A DNA stretch of 64,000 nucleotides from Zea mays (Eukaryota; Streptophyta; Magnoliopsida; Poales; Poaceae). Positions 12,673-13,257 of the stretch are shown here, piece after piece (the stretch's first letter is position 1; the number at the start of each line of letters is the position of its first letter). Position numbers and translations under genes: made by a program. Under the pieces are notes generated by a model, which worked only from the letters and a program-made list of their open reading frames with translations, was not told the origin of the DNA and made no database searches. The DNA is taken from contig NC_050100.1 of NCBI RefSeq assembly GCF_902167145.1, positions 186,799,439-186,863,438 of the forward strand, in the 5' to 3' direction.

Positions 12673-13257
12673 TTATTCCTGCTTGCCATCAGTCTTGGCG
12701 GCTTCATCGTCAGGTGTGGGAGTCCAGACATCTACCAACCTCAAGGAAGGAGGAGGCTCAAAAAGGTCTAACTCCCCACCCAGCGCACGTCCCGCAACGT
12801 GAGATGGTCCAGCTTCTGCCTCAGCAGGTGGTGCAGGCTCACTTGGGTGTAGTTGTGAGTATAATATATGGACTTCCTCGTGCAAAGTGTTGCAGTAAAC
12901 CTGCAGGTTATCAACAGTCGAGCTAAGTTCTTTAACTCGGGCCTGAGCCCTTGCTTCCTTAGCACACATTAGCAAACGAGACTGCACGGCCCAGTCAAGA
13001 GCTAAGTCTCGATCAGCGAGTTGATCCTGCATATGTCGGATGTCCCTTCGTAGTTCGTTGATTCTATCACCGTCAGCGACCCAAGCATCAGTCCTATGTT
13101 GAAGTGCTGCTTGAAGTCGACTCACACGAGCTTCAAGGTCTCCGATCGGGTTGTTGCTTCCACTGCTGCTACTTTCATGTCGGGGAGCCAATTGATGCCG
13201 AGGCACCCCAATTGGTCCCGTGGACTTGCGTGCCGTTAGCCTGGTACGTGGCGGCAT
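12673..13257 (-). CDS. Accessory ORF1 of element D: histone H3 tail-like N-terminus plus coiled coil
   Basis: A 194-residue ORF between PBS and gag. I start it at ATG 13257, not upstream: the residues after this ATG match the ORF1 of E, and CCCCCTTAG (acceptor-like) precedes it by 5 nt. Residues 4-14 read [11 protein letters not shown] and residues 18-23 include PR.QLA, the order and spacing of the histone H3 tail with about one inserted residue at each end. The ARKS lysine is the only lysine in the first 25 residues. Then comes a Ser-rich linker and a long predicted coiled coil (about residues 40-130), then an acidic, Pro-rich C-terminus. No enzymatic motif. The family is not one I can name; similarity to H3 is seen, its function is inferred. 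Confidence 0.75.
   Translation of the reverse strand: [194 protein letters not shown]

Follow-up and report, generated by a model that had tools for sequence, protein, structure and literature searches.

The window analyzed here is a 64,000-nucleotide stretch of Zea mays DNA (assembly GCF_902167145.1, contig NC_050100.1; all positions are counted within the window), and it contains two LTR retrotransposons, element D on the minus strand and a second element on the plus strand, with the following features.

3818..7120, minus strand: 3′ LTR of element D, paired with 13497..16801
7992..9836, minus strand: RNase H and integrase ORF of element D, with a chromodomain at its end
8010..8132, minus strand: integrase chromodomain of element D (PF00385, E 5.4e-6, 26.7 bits against a cut-off of 25.1)
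9846..12470, minus strand: gag, protease, and reverse transcriptase ORF of element D
12673..13257, minus strand: ORF0 of element D, 194 amino acids (tail, predicted long helix at residues 37-136, low-confidence C-terminus)
13186..13257, minus strand: H3-tail-like N-terminus of the element D ORF0, in which K11 is the equivalent of H3K9
13263..13275, minus strand: splice-acceptor-like stretch ttttcccccttag of element D, ending 5 nt upstream of the ORF0 ATG
13483..13494, minus strand: primer-binding-site-like TGGTATCGGAGC of element D, just after the 5′ LTR
13497..16801, minus strand: 5′ LTR of element D, about 3.3 kb, paired with 3818..7120
16802..20006, plus strand: 5′ LTR of the second element, 3.2 kb, paired with 26282..29486
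20247..20259, plus strand: splice-acceptor-like stretch gtgtcttttgtag of the second element, ending exactly at the ORF0 ATG
20260..20328, plus strand: H3-like N-terminus MARLRHTARKSVIPFLPSRLAER of the second-element ORF0, in H3 register over Met1-Ser10 only
20260..21267, plus strand: ORF0 of the second element, 335 amino acids, with 41 Arg and only 2 Lys
21644..22648, plus strand: gag ORF of the second element
22754..26245, plus strand: protease, reverse transcriptase, RNase H, and integrase ORF of the second element
26282..29486, plus strand: 3′ LTR of the second element, paired with 16802..20006

Self-comparison of the window shows the LTRs of element D to be 99.82% identical (2 mismatches and 4 gaps in 3306 columns) and those of the second element 99.81% identical (6 mismatches in 3205). 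Element D, with LTRs 99.8% identical, is a young chromovirus-like element, and its primer-binding-site-like sequence is presumably of the initiator-tRNA-Met type. Both elements have LTRs longer than 3 kb and carry an extra ORF between the 5′ LTR and gag, an anatomy from which we infer that both are Retrosat2/Tekay-type chromoviruses with ORF0, the clade name following from the anatomy. No chromodomain was reported by Pfam in the second element at E≤0.001. The window contains other repeats as well: i) 728 bp of the 3′ internal end of element D are duplicated beyond the second element (29486-30213 against 7116-7843, 99.86% identical), so that the second element may lie at one margin of an LTR, which may itself join two D-type elements in tandem; ii) related arrays of tandem units of about 55 bp occur three times (344-779, 39562-40120, and 49932-50392), once inverted; and iii) direct repeats of 3.3 kb at 52934-56232 and 57584-60884, 99.9% identical with only about 1.35 kb between them, are possibly a very short young LTR element.

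An ORF0, or 5′ aORF, has been reported for the Retrosat2, RIRE3, RIRE8, and Tekay chromoviruses (PMC3485330, PMC11728184); in the available text it is described since at least 2012 without a settled function (PMC3485330), likeness to an enzyme or to double-stranded-RNA-binding proteins has been suggested (PMC3485330, PMC11728184), and the maize and sorghum proteins are credited with a long helix at the C-terminus and with a fold like that of double-stranded-RNA-binding proteins (PMC11728184). The ORF0s in our window, which we call family 1 (element D) and family 2 (second element), resemble the published ones in their position between 5′ LTR and gag, in LTRs of about 3.2-3.3 kb, in their grass host, and in their diverging protein. 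They differ in that the N-terminus resembles the histone H3 tail, as it does in a third family described below, and in that the family-1 model is a long helix lacking a double-stranded-RNA-binding-like core. The word "histone" is absent from the main text of the two ORF0 papers (PMC3485330, PMC11728184) and of two reviews (PMC7264820, PMC13317346), and among the open-licence PubMed Central articles listed by literature searches, no title or abstract opening reports an H3-like tail in a plant retroelement.

That the ORF0 of element D begins with an H3-tail-like sequence centered on K9 is confirmed. About 15 identities in 24 positions had been claimed, and we count 15 with one gap on the minus strand from 13257 to 13186: the initiator Met, an 11-residue run around ARKS, and QLA. 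In the same ORF0, and again as had been claimed, the K9 equivalent is lysine, and none of the residues that match K4, K14, K18, and K23 is. When the first 30 residues were shuffled with composition kept, none of 20,000 shuffles reached the observed BLOSUM62 score against H3, an outcome that speaks against the concern, raised along with the prediction, that shuffled N-termini might match H3 equally well; on repetition, five variants gave 0, 0, 0, 1, and 5 per 20,000. We therefore reject chance or basic composition as the source of the likeness. BLOSUM62 scores are 37-57 against the H3 tail, compared with 11-24 against the tails of H4, H2A, and H2B. Among the 150 ATG-started ORFs of at least 60 amino acids in the window, the two ORF0s rank first and second by H3-tail score, and the motifs [TS]ARK[STHAN], ARKST, and RKSTG occur in the six frames of the 64 kb only at the two ORF0 starts.

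Searches of 177,635 PDB sequences (E≤10), using N-terminal queries that contained no H3, point the same way. Of 79 N-termini printed for the families, 77 were usable, the other 2 being mis-cut. The 33 N-terminal residues of the window family-1 protein gave 114 matches (best E 0.046) and a profile of 24 hand-picked family-1 N-termini gave 138 (best E 0.001); among the matches listed, 60 for each search, all are H3 or carry an H3 tail, including one labelled Cse4 whose aligned start is H3-tail-like. The PDB contains many H3 entries, so that the weight rests on the E-values and not on the number of matches. In full-length ORF0 queries the H3 signal is diluted: the whole element D protein found 6 matches at E≤10, with PEX14 at the top (E 0.053) and two H3-tail chains at E 0.18 and 0.66, and the full-length family-1 profile placed H3.8 first (E 0.16) among 94 matches that include coiled-coil proteins. 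Pfam matched nothing in three N-terminal pieces, and neither full-length window ORF0 had a match above cut-off. A histone fold was considered and rejected, as Pfam matches up to E 1 include no histone domain for either ORF0, and the family-1 model is one long helix. A protein search with a long query found two proteins that combine a family-1-like N-terminus (85-90% identical) with precomputed pol domains. No loci were found in viral contigs searched with both ORF0s, a gag-reverse transcriptase segment, and alignment A4 (27 of 121 sequences), nor in genome contigs searched with alignment A3 (29 of 121 sequences).

The element D ORF as mechanically listed starts 14 codons further upstream and encodes 208 amino acids; that in-frame ATG precedes the splice-acceptor-like AG, so that the start at MPPRTR is likelier, a choice that itself depends on the putative splice. 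A pyrimidine stretch and AG lie 5 nt before the ATG in D-type copies and 3-4 nt before it in H-type copies (see below for subfamilies), and an acceptor-like site of the ...ccttag type precedes the family-1 ATG in 29 of the 31 copies printed, having been lost in L013 and L025. The acceptor-like AG abuts the ATG directly in family 2, in family-3 copies L078-L080, and in the 4 family-4 copies examined. ORF0 would thus be translated from a spliced RNA, the upstream ATG of element D falling within the intron, and the acceptor-like sites would put the tail at a free N-terminus; family 1, which begins PPR, would not present a free Ala1-Arg2. The gag ATGs at 12461 (minus strand) and 21671 (plus strand) also directly follow an AG with a pyrimidine-containing stretch, so that gag as well as ORF0 may come from spliced RNAs.

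AlphaFold2 predicts that the first 40 or so residues of family 1 are of low pLDDT (block means 48-67), with no secondary structure in the tail except one 3-residue turn, and that residues 37-136 form one helix, mostly at pLDDT above 90. A double-stranded-RNA-binding-like core is not seen in the family-1 model. The single helix would be compatible with a coiled-coil dimer that shows two tails. The family-2 model has a helix-strand-strand-helix order at pLDDT 40 and is too poor to use.

The second-element ORF0 starts MARLRHTARKS and shares with H3, in exact register, the residues M, A1, R2, and T6 through S10; the family-2 alignment to H3 runs from Met1 to Ser10 and ends there. A profile of 12 hand-picked family-2 N-termini gave 8 PDB matches (best E 0.16), 7 of them H3 and 1 a ROK protein; H3 is absent from the matches of the full-length second-element ORF0 and of its alignment profile, and 2 of 20,000 shuffled family-2 N-termini reach the H3 score. 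Taken alone, the family-2 match to this short stretch of H3 is weak. The two window ORF0s align best with each other over their first 33 residues, 13 of which are identical (E 0.076), a likeness which by itself proves little because 249 of 20,000 shuffles reach the same mutual score. One of the only 2 lysines in the second-element ORF0, against 41 arginines, is the H3K9 equivalent. The avoidance of lysine might, speculatively, lower ubiquitination of the protein.

Conservation was assessed in the best 120 of 1652 homologues for family 1 and the best 120 of 850 for family 2, each together with the window protein. Far from being a peculiarity of the window copy, the K9-equivalent lysine is present in 121 of 121 family-1 sequences and in 105 of the 107 family-2 sequences that reach that column. 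In family 1, T6, T11, G12, P16, Q19, L20, and A21 are each kept in at least 118 of 121, R8 in 107, and A7 in 100; at S10, 77 have His and 39 have Ser, and at Q5, 59 have Lys, 51 Arg, and 7 Leu. Over the aligned part of the tails, H3 lysines other than K9 appear as Arg, His, or other residues. The claim that the tail is a mimic specialized for K9 is therefore backed by sequence and by evolution in its central point and needs qualification in another, since the extra lysine at Q5 in 59 of 121 proteins means that family 1 is not strictly K9-only.

These data bear on a simpler explanation, namely that the motif is an arginine-rich nuclear localization signal or nucleic-acid-binding sequence whose likeness to H3 reflects convergence of basic tails. 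The tails are indeed basic, the grass Tekay-type ORF0 proteins are predicted to be nuclear in the available text of PMC11728184, and S10, Q5, and R8 vary in family 1. Against this, H3 outscores the tails of H4, H2A, and H2B (37-57 against 11-24), equally basic shuffles fail (0 and 2 of 20,000 in families 1 and 2), and the residues kept in at least 118 of 121 family-1 proteins (T6, T11, G12, P16, Q19, L20, and A21) are uncharged. A nuclear localization signal alone is rejected as the source of the likeness on the failure of the H4, H2A, and H2B tails to match, and we regard the broader explanation as very improbable.

A first-look scan of the genome with the family-1 ORF0 found 5,230 candidate places, 150 of which were scored. 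For analysis of selection, 58 loci were taken, 57 were anchored, 55 gave 582 nt, and 48 were used, after exclusion of L009, L040, and L041, which were misanchored or carried an indel, and of 4 copies that contain stops. The 48 stop-free copies comprise 8 of subfamily D (the window type), 12 of subfamily S (KTARKS), 27 of subfamily H (RTARKH), and 1 other. By the Nei-Gojobori method, with the D subfamily represented by one copy (L002), dN/dS is 0.04 between D and S (dN 0.077, dS 1.79) and 0.11 between S and H (dN 0.106, dS 0.98), where dS values near or above 1 are imprecise; between D and H, dN is 0.136 and dS is saturated. These low ratios, which answer in the affirmative the question of purifying selection posed with the original prediction, mark the family-1 ORF0, its tail included, as a working protein subject to strong purifying selection. 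Codons 2-26 taken by themselves give 0.04 (D-S) and 0.10 (S-H). The ARKS region was singled out for a closer look, and there the picture is mixed: codons 7-14 have ratios of 0.16 and 0.32, still below 1 but above the 0.04 and 0.11 of the whole ORF, owing to changes at Q5 and S10. The constraint on the tail is not clearly greater than on the rest of ORF0, as dN is 0.049, 0.105, and 0.110 in codons 2-26 and 0.081, 0.106, and 0.140 in codons 27-194 (D-S, S-H, and D-H, respectively). The K9-equivalent lysine is encoded by AAG in D and S but by AAA in most H copies, a synonymous difference.

A search in the opposite direction, with H3 residues 1-33 as the only query against the assembly of 2,179,574,349 bases, gave 104 matches among 105 candidates. 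Twelve loci 100% identical to the query are followed by seven H3 or H3-like loci (80-96%), and next after these 19 come ORF0s of a third family, three of them at E 0.005 with open frames of 327 codons. Family 3 is 59% identical to H3 over residues 1-29, gap-free from Met1. The letters of ranks 1-30 (L059-L088) of the 104 places were examined: among ranks 13-30 (L071-L088), 5 start MARTKQ and are H3 genes, 2 are H3-like pieces (L074 and L077), and the 11 loci at ranks 20-30 (L078-L088) are family-3 ORF0s or decayed relatives, L087 being the most diverged. In L074 and L077 the H3-tail-like sequence lies within longer open frames, and both are probably H3 pseudogene pieces.

Family 3 strengthens the H3 likeness in several ways. 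A single family-3 N-terminal sequence gave 135 PDB matches with a best E of 6.7e-6, and the 60 matches listed are all H3 or H3 chimeras. Its lysine replacements are K4R, K14R, K18H, and K23R, with K9 kept; His replaces R8 at 5 of the 11 loci examined (family 3 and its relatives), variation of which part is probably copy decay. The N-terminus is identical to that of family 1 at 18 of 23 residues (E 4e-6), with a further C-terminal stretch of 11 of 28, and to that of family 2 at 14 of 24 (E 0.064). H3 is the best PDB match of the N-terminal segment in all three families, in family 2 only at E 0.16, so that by sequence comparison the likeness is strong in families 1 and 3 and weak in family 2. 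Because a gap-free third family was found with H3 alone, the case is stronger than the original prediction could know.

The extent of the family-3 match bears on the origin of the tail. Among 17 H3 loci that start MARTKQ (L059-L073, L075, and L076), 5 carry AAG|gt immediately after codon 24, the point at which the H3 match ends, suggesting an intron there and a tail that would be encoded by a separate exon; at L075 and L076, two of these 5 loci, the ATG is itself preceded by an acceptor-like AG. Family 3 is identical to H3 at 16 of 24 residues through codon 24 and at 1 of 7 past that point, a boundary that fits capture of the tail exon. A fourth family also fits: it accounts for 89 of 148 listed matches, is 28-37% identical to family 3 within residues 26-172, has frames of mostly 311 codons, and shares the family-3 core and the AG|ATG start, and the H3-like tail is absent from the 4 copies examined (L089-L092, e.g. 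C6:17442180-17442480). Loss of the tail in family 4 would account for this equally well. Recent capture of DNA is rejected, only 5-7 of 16 codons being common to family 3 and the 12 H3 genes; any capture would be old. The tail may thus go back to an ancestral element that took up the tail-coding exon of an H3 gene with introns.

If so, the tail might be a relic of capture, kept as a generic disordered or nuclear tail and having no present interaction with H3K9 enzymes. Such a relic would agree with the end of family-3 similarity near the exon boundary suggested by five H3 genes, with the ability of family 4 to manage without a tail, and with the turning of S10 into His in one family-1 subfamily. 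What it leaves unexplained is that T-A-R-K and Q-L-A are largely kept in family 1 at dS of about 1 to 1.8, near or beyond saturation of synonymous sites, and we consider it improbable.

We lean instead, with some reserve, toward the reading that ORF0 carries an H3K9 tail mimic, preferably acting as a decoy and perhaps derived from a captured H3 exon. That the tail is a K9 mimic is supported by sequence and by evolution; what it may do is suggested by what H3K9 does. In plant transposons, SUVH4-class H3K9 methylation and CMT3 CHG methylation sustain each other. The ORF0 protein may dimerize and display two tails, which host H3K9 methyltransferases of the SUVH4 class might accept as substrate and readers of the CMT3/ZMET2 class, HP1-like, or ADCP1-like proteins might bind. 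In the preferred role, the tail would dampen the H3K9me-CHG methylation loop on new copies by serving as decoy or competitor, followed closely by a role as a tether of the element complex to the H3K9me machinery or to heterochromatin. The full scenario, in which a captured exon had its other lysines replaced and K9 held, yielding a retrotransposon-encoded histone decoy for the H3K9-methylation/CMT3 loop, is tentative, and we consider it less likely than not.

The tethering role deserves separate consideration. The tail could be an address tag that is methylated at K9 and bound by H3K9me readers or by the integrase chromodomain of the element itself, so that ORF0 complexes would be carried to heterochromatin or the chromodomain would be masked until integration. 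An integrase chromodomain is present in element D; group II chromodomains lack an aromatic cage and their mechanism is yet to be elucidated, according to the available text of PMC12786077, so that an H3-like tail might be their natural partner; and the predicted family-1 helix is long enough for dimerization, should it occur. In the second element, on the other hand, Pfam reported no chromodomain at the threshold given above. We consider tethering less likely than not as the main role, though close behind the decoy.

Mimics of the H3 tail are known among host proteins, and include EHMT substrates with H3K9-like motifs, DNA ligase 1, and PAF15 (PMC10611923, PMC8594673); in the available text of these papers, PAF15 and LIG1 have a short H3-like stretch around a lysine which is acted on or read by H3-tail machinery. 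ORF0 differs from the EHMT substrates, LIG1, and PAF15 in belonging to a mobile element with many copies and not to the host, in aligning with H3 over as many as 29 residues from the N-terminus, and in having the other H3 tail lysines replaced. Selfish elements are also known to attack host silencing: the geminivirus protein TrAP inhibits the H3K9 methyltransferase SUVH4/KYP (PMC4606454), and the VANC proteins of VANDAL transposons are anti-silencing proteins (PMC5735166, PMC10398659). By analogy the proposed ORF0 decoy would have this strategy in common with TrAP and VANC, and the two examples establish that attacks of this general kind exist; unlike ORF0, neither protein is said to resemble the H3 tail in the opening lines of the abstracts. 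ORF0 itself and histone mimicry are thus already known, and what appears to be new here is the K9-centered likeness of the ORF0 tail to H3.

We wish to stress what such a tail may mean for maize and its retrotransposons. A K9-centered H3 tail offers ORF0 a concrete candidate function, one touching the central silencing mark of plant transposons, and provides the plant group II chromodomains with a candidate partner encoded by the same element. If the mimic reading is true, a numerous maize family carries a retrotransposon-encoded histone mimic; a histone decoy could be produced from thousands of loci; and mimicry could help explain how young elements escape silencing long enough to spread.
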